Shown: in pieces, positions 55,974 through 63,675 of the stretch
How the letters are laid out: every line of letters starts with the position of its first letter
How positions within the stretch are numbered: position 1 is the stretch's first letter
Assembly (NCBI GenBank): GCA_019744975.1
Contig: JAIETP010000003.1
Coordinates: 1 to 64,000 of the forward strand
Length of the DNA stretch: 64,000 nucleotides
Direction: 5' to 3'
DNA from: Burkholderiales bacterium
GTDB taxonomy: Bacteria; Pseudomonadota; Gammaproteobacteria; Burkholderiales; SG8-41
Program-made: the position numbers and the translations under genes
The notes under the pieces: model-generated
What the model saw: only the letters and a program-made list of their open reading frames with translations
Told to the model about the DNA's origin: nothing
Database searches by the model: none

Positions 55974-58745
55974 ATGAAATCAGATAACGCGGCGCAGGCC
56001 ATGACCGCCGACCACGCCCTCGCCTGGGCCGCGCGTTACAGCCACTATCTGCAGCGTCTGCGGTCTGCGCGACCGGAAGTAATAACGACAGCGGAAGTGG
56101 CACAACCGTTCACCGCCGCAGACATGCAGGCGGAACTGGTCGCCGCCGAAATCACCGACGATGTCACCCTGGGACGCGCGCTGCGGCGCCTGCGGCAGCG
56201 GGTCATGGCGCGGCTGATTACGCGCGACCTGGGCGGAATCGCGGACCTCGACGAGGTCGTCGGCACCGTGACCCAGCTTGCCGAAATCGCCATCCGCACG
56301 GCTGTCGCGCAACTGCACGGCGACCTCGCGACCGCGCACGGCGAACCGCGCGGCGCAACCAGCGGCGCATTGCAGCAATTACACGTGGTGGGCATGGGCA
56401 AACTCGGCGGCGCCGAACTCAACGCCTCCTCCGACATCGACCTGATTCTGGTCTATCCCGAAGAAGGCGACACCGACGGCAAACGACCGCTCAGCAATCA
56501 CGAATTCTTCACGCGCCTGACGCGGCGGCTGATCGGCGCACTCAATGAATGGACCGAGGACGGCTTTGTGTTCCGCGTCGATACGCGCTTGCGGCCCTAT
56601 GGCGACAGCGGCCCGCTGGTGGTGAGTTTCGACATGCTCGAAAACTACCTGATCACCCAGGGCCGCGCCTGGGAACGTTATGCCTGGATCAAAGGCCGCG
56701 TGCTGACCGGTGACCAGTCCGATGCATTGCTGGCGATGGTGCGCCCTTTCGTTTTCCGCCGGCATCTCGATTACGGCGCCTTCGCCGCGATGCGCAGCCT
56801 GCACAGCCAGGTGCGGCATGAAGTCAACCGGCGCGACCGGCTTGATGACATCAAGCTCGGCCCCGGCGGCATCCGTGAAATCGAATTCATCGTCCAGGTT
56901 TTCCAGCTGATCCGCGGTGGGCACGAACGCCCCCTGCAGCAGCAACCGACACTGCAGGTACTGCAGGCGCTGGGTGAACGCCAGTTCATCGCGCCTGCCG
57001 CGGTCGCCGAATTGCGTGCGGCCTACATCTTCCTGCGCAATCTCGAGCACCGTCTGCAATACCGCGACGACCAGCAGACGCAGGCGCTGCCGGCCGATGC
57101 CGAAACGCGCGCACAGCTTGCGGAGTACATGGGGTTTCCGGACGAGTCCGGCTTTCTCGCCGTGCTCGCACAGCACCGCGCGGCGGTGTCGCTGCATTTC
57201 GAGGCCATTTTTGGCGAAGCCGAAAGCGGCGGACATCCACTGTCTGCGCTGTGGCAGGAGCAACCCGAAGAAATTGATCGGAAACCCGGCGCCGACGGCG
57301 CCGCGCTGGAACAGCTGGTGAGGCTGGGTTACAAGCAGGCCCCGGAGTTGTGCCGGCGACTGGCCTTGTTCCGCAACGGCAGCCGTTACCGGCAAATGCC
57401 CGCAACCAGCCAACGCCGGCTCGACCGTCTGGTGCCGGCGGCCATCGCCGCCGCCGCCTCGCGCGGCAATCCCGATGCCACAGCGGAACGCCTGCTCGCG
57501 CTGTTCGAAAGTATCAGCCGGCGCGAAGCCTACCTCGCGTTGCTGCACGAATATCCGCACGCGCTGGAACGTGTTGCCGACCTGATGAGCGCCAGCCCCT
57601 GGGTTGCGCAATACATCACCCAGCACCCGATCCTGCTCGACGGGTTGCTCGACGCCCGCACCCTCCTGGCGCCCCCCGAATGGAATGTATTGCGTGCCGA
57701 ATTGCGGGCAGGCCTGGATTCGGCCGAGGGAGACATCGAGCGGCAAATGGATCTGCTGCGCCACTTCAAGAATACGCAGACCCTGAACTGCATCGCCCAG
57801 GACCTCGCCGGCACGCTGCCGCTGGAAACACTGAGCGACCAGTTGTCCGACCTCGCCTGCGTGATCCTGGAGGAGGTGTTGCGCCTGTGCTGGCAGGGAC
57901 TGCGCCAGCACCATCGTGAACAGCCGCTCTTTGCCATCGTCGGTTACGGCAAACTCGGCGGCAAGGAGCTGGGTTACGCCTCGGACCTCGACATCGTGTT
58001 CGTGTATGACGACGACGCCCCCGGGGCCGCCGAAAACTATGCCCGGCTTGCACAACGCATCAACCACTGGCTGACCAGCATCACCGCAGCCGGCGTACTC
58101 TACGATACCGACCTCAGGCTGCGTCCGGACGGCGCCAGCGGCCTGCTGGTGACGCCGCTCGACAGCATGCGCCAGTACCAGCTGCAACAGGCCTGGTTGT
58201 GGGAACACCAGGCGCTGACACGGGCGCGCAGCGTGGCGGGGGATGCCGCCATCAGCAATGCCTTCGAGGAGCTGCGCATCACGATGCTGCGCAAACCGCG
58301 CGAGTTGCCCGCGTTGCGCGGGGAAATCATCGGCATGCGCCGGAAAATGCTGGCGGCGCACCCCAACACCAGCAAACTGTTCGACATCAAACATGACCCG
58401 GGCGGCATCATTGATGTCGAGTTCATGGTGCAGTACCTGGTGCTGGGCCACGCCCATCATCATGCTGCGTTGACCGCCAATGCCGGCAACCTCGCGCTGC
58501 TCAAAACCGCCGCCGGACTGGGATTGATCACCGACGCCGAAGCCGTGGCGGTACGCGCCGCTTACCGGCAGTTCCGCGAACTGCAGCACCAGTTGCGGCT
58601 CGCCGGCGAAAGATATGCCCGCGTGGAACCGCGCCAGGTGGCGGCTTCGGCTGCGGCAGTCAGTGCATTGTGGAAAACCCTGCTCGGGGATGCTGCGGCG
58701 GCGGACGCAGACCCTGCAGATCCTGCAGCAGGCAGGTCCCGCTAA
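55974..58745 (+). CDS. glnE: glutamine synthetase adenylyltransferase/adenylyl-removing enzyme
   Basis: 923 residues. Two nucleotidyltransferase domains: the N-terminal one (de-adenylylation) with VVGMGKLGGAELNASSDIDL, and the C-terminal one (adenylylation) with VGYGKLGGKELGYASDLDIV, each followed by helical regulatory segments. It tunes glutamine synthetase to nitrogen status through PII. Full length, divergent from yhdP with a 98-base gap. Confidence 0.96.
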   Translation: MKSDNAAQAMTADHALAWAARYSHYLQRLRSARPEVITTAEVAQPFTAADMQAELVAAEITDDVTLGRALRRLRQRVMARLITRDLGGIADLDEVVGTVTQLAEIAIRTAVAQLHGDLATAHGEPRGATSGALQQLHVVGMGKLGGAELNASSDIDLILVYPEEGDTDGKRPLSNHEFFTRLTRRLIGALNEWTEDGFVFRVDTRLRPYGDSGPLVVSFDMLENYLITQGRAWERYAWIKGRVLTGDQSDALLAMVRPFVFRRHLDYGAFAAMRSLHSQVRHEVNRRDRLDDIKLGPGGIREIEFIVQVFQLIRGGHERPLQQQPTLQVLQALGERQFIAPAAVAELRAAYIFLRNLEHRLQYRDDQQTQALPADAETRAQLAEYMGFPDESGFLAVLAQHRAAVSLHFEAIFGEAESGGHPLSALWQEQPEEIDRKPGADGAALEQLVRLGYKQAPELCRRLALFRNGSRYRQMPATSQRRLDRLVPAAIAAAASRGNPDATAERLLALFESISRREAYLALLHEYPHALERVADLMSASPWVAQYITQHPILLDGLLDARTLLAPPEWNVLRAELRAGLDSAEGDIERQMDLLRHFKNTQTLNCIAQDLAGTLPLETLSDQLSDLACVILEEVLRLCWQGLRQHHREQPLFAIVGYGKLGGKELGYASDLDIVFVYDDDAPGAAENYARLAQRINHWLTSITAAGVLYDTDLRLRPDGASGLLVTPLDSMRQYQLQQAWLWEHQALTRARSVAGDAAISNAFEELRITMLRKPRELPALRGEIIGMRRKMLAAHPNTSKLFDIKHDPGGIIDVEFMVQYLVLGHAHHHAALTANAGNLALLKTAAGLGLITDAEAVAVRAAYRQFRELQHQLRLAGERYARVEPRQVAASAAAVSALWKTLLGDAAAADADPADPAAGRSR

Positions 58746-58752
58746 CAGTTTG

Positions 58753-58771
58753 ATGAAATTTTGAATTTCAT
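58753..58771. other. short AT-rich inverted repeat after glnE
   Basis: ATGAAATT and AATTTCAT form a perfect 8-base stem around TTG, 7 bases after the glnE stop. It lacks a T-run. It may contribute to transcript ending ahead of the palindromic repeat that begins at 58811. Confidence 0.35.
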
Positions 58772-58810
58772 GCTATTCGCTGACGCACAAGATTTATCGA
58801 CTCTCGTTTA

Positions 58811-59040
58811 GGGCCTGTTAACCATTATTTCGTGAGATGCGTTGTGGCCAAAATCGTCAGTGGCAAGGCACTTGCTGCGGCTCATATCGAGAATATGAGC
58901 AAGGCAAGTAACGCAGCCAGTGGCGATTTTGGCCACAACCCTTCGGGACGGGACGCGTGTGCGCTTGGTCGCAACGCGCCCCGAAGGAAGTCCCCTTGGG
59001 GGGCTCCCCACGCGCTCGCGCATCACTTTTAAACAGACCG
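58811..59040 (+). repeat. palindromic mobile-type repeat, copy 1
   Basis: Begins GGGCCTGTTAACCATTATTT and ends with a degenerate inverse (TTTTAAACAGACCG). Up to about 58939 it matches copy 2 at 62958-63226 almost base for base. That shared part folds into a long hairpin: GTTGTGGCCAAAATCG (58841-58856) with CGATTTTGGCCACAAC (58924-58939), ACTTGC (58870-58875) with GCAAGT (58904-58909), and GCTCATAT (58880-58887) with ATATGAGC (58893-58900) around a CGAGA loop. The 3' part differs from copy 2 and makes its own stem (CCTTCGGG at 58940-58947 with CCCGAAGG at 58980-58987). TTA precedes the element and CTA follows it, a possible decayed target duplication. No transposase. Open frames on both strands are a by-product of the palindrome. 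Confidence 0.85.
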
Positions 59041-60348
59041 CTAGACCGGAACCTCACGCAGATGCGACGCCAGGTTGATCAGGCTGTAGACCTCGATTTG
59101 GCCCTTGCCCTTGCCGGTGATGCTCACCGGCCCCTCAAACTCGAACTGGTTCTTTGACCGCTTGTAGGTCATCGAATCGACGAATATCACGCCGGAACGC
59201 GCCTCGCCGGTGACCCGGCTTGCGGTGTTGACGGTGTCGCCCCACAGGTCGTAGATGAACTTGCGGGTGCCGATCACCCCGGCGACCACAGGACCGGAGC
59301 AGATGCCGATATGGATGCCAAGGCTAATGCCTTTCTTTTCCGACAATTCGGCCATGTATCTGCGCATGTCCAGCGCGAGCCGCAGCATCGAGGCCGTGTA
59401 GTCGCGTGCATCGACCGCAAAATCGACGCCGTCATGCTCGATCAGGCCGCCGGCCACCATGTAAGCATCGCCGATGGTCTTGATTTTTTCCAGCCGGTGA
59501 AATTCCGCCATCCCGTCGAATTTCGTAAACACCTCGTTCAGCAGTTCCACCATCGCCTTCGGCGGCACTTCCTCGGCGAGACGGGTAAAGTCGATGATAT
59601 CGGCGAACATGACGGTCACGTCGGCAAAACCGTCGGCAATGATGCCATGCTGGTCTTTCAGCCGCCGTGCGATCGGCGCCGGCAGAATGTTGAGCAGCAG
59701 GGACTCCGATTTTTCCTGCTCGATGCGCAGCAAATGATTTTGCTCGTTGACCGCCGCAGCCAGCTTGTCGCGCTCGCGCACGAAAAAGCTGATCAGCAGG
59801 TACATGATCGTCGACATTGCGGCAAAATTCAGCGTGAAAAACACCGCGATGCTCTGCATGGTGACGCCGGACTCGACGCCAAAGGTCAGCCAGTAGTCGA
59901 AAAACCCCGAAATCCCCGTCAGGATGATGTACGCGGCAAACCACGGCAGCGACTGCCGGGCGCCCTGGAAAATCATCACCCCCACCGGTGCCAGCAGCGC
60001 CCACAGCGCAACGCCGGAGGAACTGACATAGCTGCCGATGCTCCACTGCATGATGAACGGCATGAACAGGAACAGGCTGACCTGCAGGGTGCGGAACACC
60101 GCAAAATTCAGCGTGTAGATGTAGTAGGCCAGGGAGACTGCCGAGACGGCGAGGTAACTCAGGGGCACTGTCGAGGAAAACTTGATGCCCATCGCCCAGT
60201 ACAGCGCGAGCCACAGTACCGATCCGAAGCCCATCAGCCCGCAGGAAAAGATCAACAACGTCTTGTTGAGCCTTTCCTGCTCGCTGTCCTGCTCCGTGAT
60301 GACGCGGTCGCTCAAACCATTGAGCCACGTACGCAGGTTTGCCAGCAT
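59041..60348 (-). CDS. membrane-bound class III adenylate cyclase
   Basis: 435 residues: six predicted membrane helices (about 30-190), a short linker with the cyclase transducer-like LLLNILPAPIARRLK, then a class III catalytic domain. Metal-binding Asp are in VMFADIIDF (about 250) and TIGDAYMVAGG (about 294); the Lys in EKIKTIGDA and the Asp in YDLWGDTVN are the pair that selects ATP over GTP. The last codon and the TAG stop touch the end of repeat copy 1. Its effector could be cNMP-domain proteins such as the one at 47558-48100, but that is inference. Confidence 0.9.
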   Translation of the reverse strand: MLANLRTWLNGLSDRVITEQDSEQERLNKTLLIFSCGLMGFGSVLWLALYWAMGIKFSSTVPLSYLAVSAVSLAYYIYTLNFAVFRTLQVSLFLFMPFIMQWSIGSYVSSSGVALWALLAPVGVMIFQGARQSLPWFAAYIILTGISGFFDYWLTFGVESGVTMQSIAVFFTLNFAAMSTIMYLLISFFVRERDKLAAAVNEQNHLLRIEQEKSESLLLNILPAPIARRLKDQHGIIADGFADVTVMFADIIDFTRLAEEVPPKAMVELLNEVFTKFDGMAEFHRLEKIKTIGDAYMVAGGLIEHDGVDFAVDARDYTASMLRLALDMRRYMAELSEKKGISLGIHIGICSGPVVAGVIGTRKFIYDLWGDTVNTASRVTGEARSGVIFVDSMTYKRSKNQFEFEGPVSITGKGKGQIEVYSLINLASHLREVPV

Positions 60349-60717
60349 TCAGTCTCCCCATCGGAACCAACCGGATGCCGGCTGGAACCTCCCCTTTTTT
60401 GTCCAGCGGCTATTGTACCCGGTAACCGGATTTACTTGGATATTCTTGAGGATACCGCTGAACCGGGGGACGGAATTTCGGCGCCGGCATCGGCAGCACC
60501 GGACAAATCGGCTAAAATATTTGTCGCAGCGCGGGTAAATGTGCGGCATAGGTGCGGCATAGCTGCCGGCAGGGTTGCCGGTGCAACCGCAATTGCGGTC
60601 GCCGGATACGCCGGTCCCGCACAGGATTCTGCGTTTCTGTGTAATTTTTTCTGTGTAATTTATTAACCGCTTTTACAATCTGTTCCGCAGTATTGAACGC
60701 AACTGGAGAACTTCGGC
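60349..60717. other. 369-base intergenic region with two tandem duplications
   Basis: No gene is supported here. It contains two short perfect tandem repeats: GTGCGGCATAG twice at 60541-60562 and TTTCTGTGTAATTT twice at 60634-60661. The second, AT-rich one is in the likely promoter region of ilvE. No FNR box or terminator was recognised. Confidence 0.7.
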
Positions 60718-61644
60718 ATGTCCATGGCTGATCGTGACGGGCAAATCTGGTACGACGGGAAACTGGTGCCCTGGCGCGACGCAACCACCCACGTACTGAC
60801 CCACTCCCTCCACTACGGGCTTGCCGTATTCGAAGGGGTCAGGGCCTATAACACCGACATCGGCACCGCCATTTTCCGGTTGCAGGAACACACCGAGCGG
60901 CTGTTCAATTCGGCACACATCTACATGATGAAAATACCTTACACCCGGGAAGTGCTGATGGCGGCACAGAAGGAGGTCGTGCGCGTCAACAAGCTGGAAT
61001 CCTGCTACATCCGGCCCATCGCCTTCTACGGTTCGGAAAAAATGGGCGTGTCACCCAAGGGTGCCAGCGTGCACGTCGCCATCGCCGCCTGGCCCTGGGG
61101 CGCCTACCTCGGCGACGAGGCCCTGGAAAAAGGCATCCGCGTCAAAACCTCGTCCCACGCCCGCCACCACGTCAACGTGTCGATGTGCCGTGCCAAATAT
61201 TCGGGTACCTACGCCAACTCGATCCTCGCCAACCTCGAAGCCACCGAACACGGCTACGACGAGGGCCTGCTGCTCGATGTCGATGGTTTTGTCGCCGAAG
61301 GTTCGGGTGAAAACCTGTTCATGGTCAAAAACGGCAAACTCTACGAACCGGAACTGACCAGTTCGCTGATCGGCATCACCCGCGACGCCATCATCACACT
61401 GGCCCGGGAAATGGGTTACGAAGTCGCCGCACGACGCATCACCCGCGATGATCTCTACATTGCCGACGAGGCTTTTTTCACCGGCACCGCCGCCGAGGTC
61501 ACGCCGATCCGCGAATTGGACGGCCGGATGATCGGCGACGGCAAACGCGGCCCGATCACTGCGCGCCTGCAGAAAAAATTCTTCGAGTGCGTCAACGCCA
61601 GGGCCGCCGAGCACCGCGACTGGCTTTCGCCAGTGGCCGCCTGA
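60718..61644 (+). CDS. ilvE: branched-chain amino acid aminotransferase
   Basis: 308 residues, PLP-dependent fold-type IV enzyme for the last step of valine, leucine and isoleucine synthesis. PLP Lys at about 160 in CRAKYSGTYANSILA. Other marks: HYGLAVFEGVRAY near the N terminus and VAEGSGENLFMVKNG, ITRDAIITLARE toward the end. Preceded by TGGAGAA about eight bases before the ATG. Confidence 0.95.
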   Translation: MSMADRDGQIWYDGKLVPWRDATTHVLTHSLHYGLAVFEGVRAYNTDIGTAIFRLQEHTERLFNSAHIYMMKIPYTREVLMAAQKEVVRVNKLESCYIRPIAFYGSEKMGVSPKGASVHVAIAAWPWGAYLGDEALEKGIRVKTSSHARHHVNVSMCRAKYSGTYANSILANLEATEHGYDEGLLLDVDGFVAEGSGENLFMVKNGKLYEPELTSSLIGITRDAIITLAREMGYEVAARRITRDDLYIADEAFFTGTAAEVTPIRELDGRMIGDGKRGPITARLQKKFFECVNARAAEHRDWLSPVAA

Positions 61645-61651
61645 AACCGTC

Positions 61652-61855
61652 ATGAATACGTCCACCGATAACAAGTCACGTCAGATCGAAGTCACCGCCG
61701 CAGACCTGCCGCTGCATTGCCCGACACCCGCAATGCAACTGTGGAATGCCCACCCGCGGGTGTTCCTGCCGATCGAAAACACCGGCGAGGCGCTGTGTCC
61801 TTACTGCGGAACCCGCTACACGCTTAAAGGCGGTGCGGGCACCGGTCATCATTAA
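61652..61855 (+). CDS. small CHCC-type zinc-finger protein
   Basis: 67 residues with LHCPTPAMQLWNAHPRVFLP and CPYCGTRYTL. The Cys, His and Cys pair form the C-H-C-C zinc site of the zf-CHCC family, related to mitochondrial NDUFS6. It is 7 bases after ilvE and translationally close. Function in bacteria is not settled. Confidence 0.88.
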   Translation: MNTSTDNKSRQIEVTAADLPLHCPTPAMQLWNAHPRVFLPIENTGEALCPYCGTRYTLKGGAGTGHH

Positions 61856-61899
61856 GCGATGAACGCGGGGCAGCCATTGCTGTTCCGCGTATATTGCCG

Positions 61900-62934
61900 A
61901 TGACCAGCATTCTCGTCGTCGGCCCGTCCTGGGTCGGCGATACCGTGATCTCGCAGTCGCTGCTGAAACTGTTGCGACAACAGAATCCGGCCGCGCAGAT
62001 CGACTGCCTCGCCCCGCCGTGGACCCTGCCGCTGCTCGCACGCATGCCCGAAGTGCGCCACGGCATCAGCAATCCCTTCGGTCACGGCGCCTTCAGGCTG
62101 GGCGAACGCCGCGCGCTCGGCAAAACACTGCGCGAACGCAATTACGATCATGCACTGGTGCTGCCGAACTCGTGGAAATCAGCGCTGATCCCGTGGTTTG
62201 CCGGCATCCCGCTGCGTACTGGTTTTCGCGGCGAAGCACGCTGGGGCCTGCTCAACGACCTGCGCCGCCTCGATCCCGTCGCGCTGCCGCAGATGGTGCA
62301 GCGGTTTGCCGCGCTGGCGCTGCCCGCCGGCACAACCCTGCCCTCGCCATTGCCGCTGCCGCTGCCGGCGCTGCAATCAACGGCGGCACAACAACAACAG
62401 CTGCTGGCGCGACTCGGACTCAATACCGACAAAAACAAGGACAAACCGGTGATCGCATTCTGTCCGGGCGCCGAGTACGGGCCGGCCAAACGCTGGCCCG
62501 AAGCCCATTTCGCAGCCCTCGCACGGATGCTCGCGGCGCGCGGCTGCGTGGTGTGGCTGGTCGGATCGCCAAAAGATCATGCCGTTGCCGAAACCATCGC
62601 GCAGGGCAGCGCCGGCGCCTGCGTCAACCTCTGCGGTAAAACCGACATTGCCGAAGCCACCGACCTGCTCGCCGCGGCACGGCTGGTGGTGACCAACGAC
62701 TCCGGACTGATGCACATTGCAGCCGCCGTCGGCCGTCCGGTGATCGCGCTCTATGGTTCCAGCTCGCCGCAGTTCACGCCGCCCCTCAGCCCCGATGCGC
62801 GCATCCTCAAGCTGGACATTGAATGCAGCCCCTGCTTCAAACGCGAGTGCCCGCTGGGCCATTTCAAATGCCTGAACGACCTGTCGCCGGAGCGCGTTTT
62901 CGCCGCAATCGATTTTGCTAGAATCTGCACCTGA
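61900..62934 (+). CDS. waaF: lipopolysaccharide heptosyltransferase II
   Basis: 344 residues, GT9-family enzyme that adds the second L,D-heptose to the inner core of LPS. Motifs: ILVVGPSWVGDTVISQSL, CPGAEYGPAKRWP, and NDSGLMHIAAAVGRPVIAL (sugar-nucleotide site). ATG at 61900 (MTSILVVG) fits the family start. Repeat copy 2 begins 23 bases after its stop. Confidence 0.93.
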   Translation: MTSILVVGPSWVGDTVISQSLLKLLRQQNPAAQIDCLAPPWTLPLLARMPEVRHGISNPFGHGAFRLGERRALGKTLRERNYDHALVLPNSWKSALIPWFAGIPLRTGFRGEARWGLLNDLRRLDPVALPQMVQRFAALALPAGTTLPSPLPLPLPALQSTAAQQQQLLARLGLNTDKNKDKPVIAFCPGAEYGPAKRWPEAHFAALARMLAARGCVVWLVGSPKDHAVAETIAQGSAGACVNLCGKTDIAEATDLLAAARLVVTNDSGLMHIAAAVGRPVIALYGSSSPQFTPPLSPDARILKLDIECSPCFKRECPLGHFKCLNDLSPERVFAAIDFARICT

Positions 62935-62957
62935 TCCGCGCAGGCTGTAAAGCGCAC

Positions 62958-63226
62958 AGGGCCTGTTAACCATTATTTCATGAGATGCGTTGTGGCCAAA
63001 ATCGTCAGTGGCAAGGCGTTTGCCGCAGCTCATATCGAGAATATGAGCAAGGCAAACAACGCAGCCAGTGGCGATTTTGGCCTCAACCCGGAGGGACGGG
63101 ACGATTTGGCCCCAGTGCGTTGTCGCGCCTTCGCTTGTTTGCCAAGGGGCAAACGGCACTCGACGCTCCTAGCCCTGAGGCCAAATCGTCGCCGTCGCAC
63201 TCATGAAATAATGGTTAACAGGCCCT
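62958..63226 (+). repeat. palindromic mobile-type repeat, copy 2 (complete, 27-bp inverted repeats)
   Basis: 269 bases bounded by perfect 27-bp terminal inverted repeats (62958-62984 and 63200-63226; the outer part reads AGGGCCTGTTAACC). The left half carries the hairpin shared with copy 1, with GTTGTGGCCAAAATCG (62989-63004) and CGATTTTGGCCTCAAC (63072-63087), GTTTGC (63018-63023) and GCAAAC (63052-63057), and the identical GCTCATAT/ATATGAGC tip (63028-63048). The right half is a second hairpin unique to this copy: GACGATTTGGCC (63100-63111) with GGCCAAATCGTC (63179-63190), and GTTTGCC/GGCAAAC around AAGG at 63137-63154. No transposase is encoded, so it is a non-autonomous (MITE-like) element by structure. 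Confidence 0.87.
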
Positions 63227-63232
63227 AGGGAG
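63227..63232 (+). promoter_or_regulatory. ribosome binding site abutting repeat copy 2
   Basis: AGGGAG, five bases before the GTG at 63238, begins at the first base after the terminal inverted repeat. The gene therefore has no 5' region of its own beyond this site. Transcription must come from waaF or from within the repeat. Confidence 0.55.
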
Positions 63233-63237
63233 CTGCC

Positions 63238-63675
63238 GTGAAAAAATCCATGTTCGCGACGCCGCAGGACGCCGAGGCGGCCTTTTACGACGCCTTTGTC
63301 AAACGCGACCTCGACGCGATGATGGAAGTCTGGTCGGATGATGACGACAGTTACTGCGTGCATCCCGGCGGCGCGCGAGTGTCCGGCGTCGAACGCATTC
63401 GTGAATCATGGCGGCGGCTTTTCGCCGGCGGTCAGGACCTGCGCTTCAGCCTGCGTGACCAGCAGCTGATCCATACCATGATGCTCGCCGTACACAGCGT
63501 TTACGAACACATCTCCGTCGCCGGCCAGTCGCGCGCGCAGCAACCAATGATCGCCACCAACATCTATCAGCGCACCGAGCGCGGCTGGCGCATGGTGGCG
63601 CACCACGCCGCCGCGGCGCCAGCCTCGGTGAGGCAGGAAGCCGACACCGGGCCTGCGACCAAAACACTGCACTGA
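63238..63675 (+). CDS. NTF2-like (SnoaL-type) protein
   Basis: 145 residues with the cone-shaped NTF2-like pattern: MFATPQDAEAAFYDAFVKRD, MMEVWSDDDDSYCVHPGG, and NIYQRTERGWRMVAHHAA near the end. Such proteins are small ligand-binding or enzyme domains; the exact role is unknown. GTG start, directly after the palindromic repeat copy 2. Confidence 0.82.
   Translation: MKKSMFATPQDAEAAFYDAFVKRDLDAMMEVWSDDDDSYCVHPGGARVSGVERIRESWRRLFAGGQDLRFSLRDQQLIHTMMLAVHSVYEHISVAGQSRAQQPMIATNIYQRTERGWRMVAHHAAAAPASVRQEADTGPATKTLH

Follow-up and report, generated by a model that had tools for sequence, protein, structure and literature searches.

Miniature inverted-repeat transposable elements (MITEs) are commonly seen as dead remnants with palindromes that happen to fold. 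The element described here lies at positions 62959-63225 of a 64,000-nt stretch of a Burkholderiales bacterium genome (contig JAIETP010000003.1, assembly GCA_019744975.1; the whole stretch is called the window below). It is a non-autonomous, MITE-like mobile element. Inside its terminal inverted repeats (TIRs) it carries two hairpin units of about 104 nt each, A and B, placed head to head. The mobile part is of a known kind. The interior is unusual: it is an inward-polar pair of folded strands under selection, kept through a probable exchange of the ends.

Several described repeats resemble this element in part; they are compared here from the accessible parts of their descriptions. MITEPsy1 of Pseudomonas syringae is 100 nt long; its TIRs measure 18 nt, and its insertions follow CTAG or YTAA (PMC3189936). 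Like this IS5-moved MITE, the present element is short, has no transposase gene, shares TIRs with IS5-family insertion sequences (ISs), has a short target duplication and occurs in intergenic copies. It differs in its two conserved structured units and in the many unrelated TIRs; the available text on MITEPsy1 describes no covarying units (PMC3189936). QMITE1 and QMITE2 of Coxiella burnetii are MITEs giving small RNAs, and QMITE1 has no orthologues by BLASTn (PMC5896051). They are likewise non-autonomous, strongly folding and 150-400 bp long, and provide a precedent for a transcribed MITE. However, that study found them in one species, and the available text reports no covariation for them (PMC5896051). 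Pae-1 of P. aeruginosa is a pair of adjacent stem-loops of 84 nt (PMC2267715), and R0 and R2, of the R families of P. fluorescens, have ends in common with IS elements (PMC2718517). These repeats too are intergenic and fold, and some of them have stem-loops side by side or inverted repeats that are identical. However, they are sequence-defined within single species and have other sizes; compared by description, they could match a subfamily. Burkholderiales-1 and Pseudomon-2, question-marked structured-RNA candidates without an Rfam accession (Weinberg et al. 2010, PMC2864571), have a similar taxonomic range, whereas their available description does not include mobility; here too the comparison is by description, and overlap is possible. 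No description of the element was found in the accessible parts of the open-access literature, where Pae-1, the R families, Burkholderiales-1 and Pseudomon-2 were met by name and could be members.

Paired inverted hairpins with polarity are known from the REP/BIME and REPIN families, and attC sites are folded single strands whose R and L boxes are recognised by an integron integrase. The element has such paired hairpins, and its folded strands may likewise be recognised. However, REPs are 20-40 bp long with GTAG or CGTC tags (PMC3733652), whereas here units of about 104 nt lie within TIRs of 26-31 nt with TA on both sides. These TIRs and TA flanks also set the element apart from IS200/IS605-type elements and REPs, which have subterminal hairpins without TIRs and target duplication. 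The element does not belong to a known Rfam family: the window gave no match at the gathering score, and the relaxed threshold gave none within the element and two weak unrelated matches elsewhere in the window. An Rfam search of 20 loci of the superfamily found one tRNA only.

The fold of the complete element is well outside chance: its plus strand folds with -163.4 kcal/mol (200 shuffles: mean -89.2, standard deviation 5.2). In alignment A1, made from sequence only by MAFFT (alignment A4, in contrast, was made to fit the structure and has an advantage from this), 29 of the 37 predicted pairs have changes on both sides. Pairing is retained in 93.7% of the A1 cells, against 73.8% after shuffling and 30.8-44.7% with the partners slid. 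Covariation was then assessed in 89 units of less than 85% identity, obtained from 133 matches reduced to 106 non-overlapping ones, each place being represented by its better-scoring strand. Among 3203 cells, 2834 are Watson-Crick and 176 more are G.U. Against a simulated phylogenetic null (FastTree tree, observed substitutions, 60 replicates, 5050 column pairs; a simplified procedure similar to R-scape) 31 of the 37 pairs of the structure reach significance (E <= 0.05), and in each of the remaining six a single pair type predominates. This is the covariation beyond phylogeny that is expected of a structured RNA.

Six column pairs beyond the structure are significant as well. Three of them extend stems; the others, 32:73, 28:77 and 24:83, are within internal loops or next to them. 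The pair 32:73 is non-canonical, being C.A in 52 units, A.G in 36 and a gap in one. Nearly or fully invariant positions (C27, G30, G33, G40, A65, A74, C75, G79) are concentrated in the internal loops and the pairs that close them, and the CCC at the end of unit A has an entropy of at most 0.45 bits in the 89 units. Tandem G.A-like positions (31:74 and 32:73) are present, but identity of the internal loop with a K-turn is not claimed, as the order of loop and stems presumably does not fit that motif.

An earlier note on this DNA had pointed to two compensatory base pairs. Both exist. Of the 56 distinct full copies, 44 have G-C and nine have A-T at element pair 60:99, and 43 have C-G and seven have T-A at pair 61:98. 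The note had proposed a structured repeat family, either mobile DNA recognised by its hairpin or structured RNA that is transcribed, and this is borne out by the covariation, the mobile behaviour and the selection on a folded strand. As a check it had named a search for more copies with a covariation test; more copies were found, and the covariation is very strong.

The two strands of a unit are not equivalent. For a comparison of their stabilities, 52 of 181 units of 95-112 nt were retained after a k-mer redundancy filter, orientation was set by the TIRs and not by score, and the difference given by dinucleotide shuffles was subtracted. Of the two strands the inward one is the stabler in 24 of 26 A units (mean -4.5 kcal/mol, standard error 0.6) and in 23 of 26 B units (mean -5.1 kcal/mol, standard error 1.0). 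The three exceptions among B units are two degenerate units and L129 (G010:C20:12803-13072). The interior of unit B in L129 lies inverted within its stem and the polarity of its fold is reversed, which fits an orientation carried by the core. Given the covariation, the non-canonical covarying pair and this polarity, selection acts on a folded single strand.

The range of the units was studied with two models. R1 derives from 24 diverse units read inward, and R2 from 13 B-type units. The window's genome contributed none of the 13, and at least 12 of them come from other genera. R1 finds unit A in both window copies of the repeat, with 111.9 bits at 58838-58941 in the copy at 58811. In the R1 search of the window (E up to 1) unit B was not found. 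R2, with which 27 loci were searched in one run, finds window unit B and, at 51.5 bits, unit A of the copy at 58811; unit A of 62959-63225 was not listed in the R2 search of the window. In other subfamilies R1 finds both units, on opposite strands and a few bases apart. The R2 results, these subfamilies and a common loop motif indicate that A and B are homologous.

R1 matches occur in 111 of 300 genomes sampled from the order (63 of 135 genera) and in 64 of 398 sampled from the phylum, and R2 matches in 26 of 143 genomes of a class sample, repeatedly as opposite-strand pairs a few bases apart. These counts are lower bounds, as Infernal was run with its stricter filters and scoring per genome was limited; most sampled genomes gave no match. 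Both models match loci of Burkholderia cenocepacia, Caballeronia sp. NK8 and Azotobacter chroococcum; copies in A. chroococcum NCIMB 8003 (pAcX50f) are annotated. When named genome contigs were scanned for the core pattern, the matches listed included Pandoraea terrae LMG 30175, many assemblies of Betaproteobacteria and Burkholderiales, and Alphaproteobacteria, some of these matches looking like chance. By blastn, relatives of the Pandoraea element were found in Burkholderia, Caballeronia, Paraburkholderia and Cupriavidus records, and relatives of the element L318 in Pseudomonas, Azotobacter and Halomonas records. Plasmid DNA searched with the whole 6.5 kb gave genes only among the matches listed, and gave no match with the L265 element.

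The repeats behave as a mobile element. The window's genome has 19 full-length matches with both ends, besides partial ones, and related copies occur in further genomes of the genus and the family. Site 62959 was compared in 11 out of 20 further genomes of the genus: the insertion is absent from 10, and the eleventh (G010) has a copy in the same interval. Presence or absence at one site among relatives, shortness without a transposase gene, TIRs and a short target duplication are features of MITEs mobilised by IS5-family transposases, and the element has them all. The 56 distinct elements that were aligned and tabulated (the chimeric L149 was left out beforehand) are 231-337 nt long, and 32 of them have TA on both sides. 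A minimal form of 83 nt, two TIRs with almost nothing between them, was seen at G000:C2:254879-254961 (L056, L057).

The letters of the TIRs vary by subfamily while complementarity is kept within each copy. Subfamilies of the same layout have ends as different as GGGCCTGTTAAC..., AGAGCGCCTAACA..., GAACCTATCTCAATAAT..., GGGCGAATCGACATTC... and GTGTCCTGCCCCGTAG.... In the 56 elements the mean number of mismatches per 24 nt is 1.21 between the TIR arms of the same copy, against 3.74 between copies; the summed mismatches are 68, against a lowest value of 167 in 20,000 permutations. Only nine copies have TIRs perfect over 24 nt; the commonest departure is at element position 22, where 39 of 56 have a G.T pair. 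In the window element the inverted match at the ends is 27 nt long and 100% complementary, with one flanking base included.

A candidate mover can be named for the elements of the complete genome G210. There the end TAGAACCCATTTCAT forms 22 inverted pairs at the spacing of the element and 11 at about 860 bp. Elements and ISs have a terminal sequence of 19 nt, GAACCCATTTCATAAATAG, in common, and TA stands on both sides of all 14 elements and nine of the 10 IS copies that were read. The one of these ISs that was examined, L342 (G210:C1:484364-485222), encodes an IS5-family transposase in two open reading frames (ORFs; NF033580). In the window's genome an IS5-family insertion sequence with a transposase split over two ORFs, L105 (G000:C6:100346-101177), matches an element TIR over 17 nt at one end and over a shorter stretch at the other. 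Thus in both genomes examined the elements have ends in common with a complete IS of the same genome. From this association of ends and TA flanks it is likely that an IS5-family insertion sequence moves the elements in G210. Just inside its right end, L342 has TAGGGTCTGTTAAC, which is the TIR motif found in the window's subfamily. It looks as though a newer end encloses an older one, a possible route of end exchange.

An interior derived from the parent IS is often cited for MITEs, as in the accessible part of PMC3189936. In L342 and L105 the unit search gave no match, and the interior of the element is not a remnant of either. Such a remnant is not required for mobilisation in trans.

The explanation that we favour, and consider quite probable as a whole, is a MITE-like element moved in trans that carries two selected, inward-folding units, probably functioning as RNA. 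An IS5-family DDE transposase encoded elsewhere would act on the TIRs, and the element would insert at TA. Between subfamilies the TIRs would have been replaced or would have diverged, probably following different transposases, with the core kept. Selection keeps each inward strand foldable into one defined structure with conserved purine-rich internal loops. Since both units read inward, a transcript entering from either side would meet a correctly oriented unit first. In the transcript the unit could serve as a site of protein binding or of processing, or it could stop or shield transcription, and such activity could make insertions tolerable or useful to the element.

The main choice left by selection on a folded strand is between RNA and single-stranded DNA. 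Like attC sites or the ends of IS200/IS605 elements, the inward-strand hairpin might be recognised as DNA, with no RNA involved, by the transposase or by a protein of the host while DNA is replicated, transposed or taken up. The mobility of the element agrees with this, and so does the symmetric position of the units, which adjoin the ends with the same polarity relative to each end and would suit end recognition; moreover, sheared G-A-like loops and G.T pairs can form in DNA too. However, the associated transposases are of the IS5 family, for which we know of no use of single-stranded DNA hairpins, and the two ISs with matching ends carry no unit, so their transposases need none for their own elements. 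The unpaired positions, with 865 A against 298 T, are A-rich and T-poor, which is typical of structured RNA. We regard the DNA form as a minority possibility. RNA is the rather likelier functional form, because of the A-rich unpaired positions, the ISs that do without a unit and the inward polarity at both ends, the last two being arguments of interpretation.

Two other accounts would dispense with selection on the units. If the arms of a palindrome copied each other by template switching or gene conversion, pairing would persist by itself, and it would also give TIR arms that match within copies and vary between them, as is seen. But such copying cannot make the non-canonical pairs 32:73 and 28:77 covary, cannot hold the internal loops constant across distant genomes while the stems change, and predicts no strand polarity. 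For the units it is largely contradicted and very improbable; taken by themselves, the TIR arms could have arisen in this way. Size, TIRs, TA flanks and IS-shared ends are, on the other hand, those of ordinary MITEs, and the element could be an internal deletion derivative of an IS5-family element with a palindrome that folds without function. This we hold to be the least credible account, contradicted for the interior: that sequence is not IS sequence (L342 and L105 gave no unit match), it is common to genomes across the phylum with different TIRs, and it shows selected structure. The mobility part of this account is adopted in the explanation of a trans-moved element with RNA-forming units.

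Some observations weigh against that explanation. The window element itself has CA (62957-62958) as its left neighbour, not TA, with TA (63226-63227) on the right only, and 24 of the 56 elements are without TA on one or both sides. The flanks of site 62959 differ among relatives, so that the exact target before insertion cannot be read. At two Alphaproteobacteria loci (L188, L213) there are single-unit elements of 163 nt, and some B units are degenerate (L152, L219); two units are thus not indispensable. G.U pairs outnumber A.C pairs in 67 of the 89 units and the reverse holds in seven, but these counts are biased, as the strand kept was the one scoring higher under a model allowing G.U; only the TIR-oriented strand test is free of this bias. 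In addition, G.T is milder than A.C in DNA too, and RNA and single-stranded DNA are not separated by such counts. Finally, the IS5 mobilisation is argued from association, and the RNA form is one that we infer.

A further-reaching view, offered tentatively and with rather less than even weight, is that the core is an independent, ancient mobile lineage: a pair of structured RNA or single-stranded DNA units with a conserved three-dimensional loop motif, whose fold was kept across Pseudomonadota while the ends were exchanged repeatedly to ride different transposases. The element would then be a parasite of transposons, with a functional folded nucleic acid and not a gene as its cargo. In any case, a MITE-like element here combines covariation that matches established structured RNAs in strength with non-canonical covariation, polarity, a phylum-wide range and unrelated ends. 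This raises the testable question of what use a folded single strand is to a transposon that codes for nothing. With the model, moreover, many unannotated intergenic repeats of Burkholderia, Pseudomonas and their relatives could be recognised as one superfamily.

The coordinates of the window features are collected in the table.

Table. Features of the complete element, the truncated copy and the older repeat (window positions)
Feature	Position	Strand	Basis and remarks
Complete non-autonomous element	62959..63225	.	267 nt; perfect inverted ends
Left TIR	62959..62984	+	26 nt; inverted-repeat search; TIR limits from 57 elements
Hairpin unit A	62986..63089	+ (inward strand +)	model R1, 113.9 bits, E 1.3e-32; this unit is among the 24 sequences that built R1
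CCC-GGA-GGG junction joining units A and B	63087..63095	.	read from sequence
Hairpin unit B	63093..63198	- (inward strand -)	model R2, 75.0 bits, E 1.8e-14
Right TIR	63200..63225	-	26 nt; perfect complement of left TIR (26/26)
Truncated copy: left TIR (58811-58836), unit A and junction, without right half	58811..58955	+	alignment of window copies
Older, different repeat, interrupted by truncated copy	58742..59044	.	uninterrupted relative in L022; right part matched elsewhere in genome

The complete element lies between an ORF ending at 62934, similar to ADP-heptose--LPS heptosyltransferase, and an ORF starting at 63238. ORFs crossing it are at most 260 aa long by mechanical listing, and the longest runs past the element. 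A protein-coding account was set aside: element lengths such as 259, 260, 264, 266, 268, 278, 336 and 337 nt are mostly not multiples of three. Nor is such an account of the stems needed, since pairing explains them.

The two nearly identical copies with a long hairpin that the earlier note had described are real, with 146 nt in common at 92% identity (58810-58955 and 62958-63103). Their extents had to be redrawn, as the second is one complete element and the first ends near 58955. The hairpin itself stood; the TIRs, the inverted unit B and the nesting of the first copy had been missed. By comparison with L022, the sequence at 58956-59044 is the right part of the older repeat and lies outside the truncated copy. 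As far as match coordinates show, G018 lacks the copy at 58811: query positions 1-318 and 641-2040 adjoin there within two bases.

The older repeat (about 1417-1593 in L022) has ends like CTAGCAGTTTGTTGAAA and a GC-rich palindromic part with CCCCGAAGGAAGTCCCCTTGGGG. A complete element with a TA insertion lies inside another copy of it (L038, G000:C9:140414-140683), a nesting like that of the copy at 58811. Short pieces of the GC-rich part occur at many places in the window's genome. At G000:C31:2271-2359 (L027-L029) a GC-rich piece of 35 nt is matched three times in succession at steps of 27 nt, which suggests a small tandem array.

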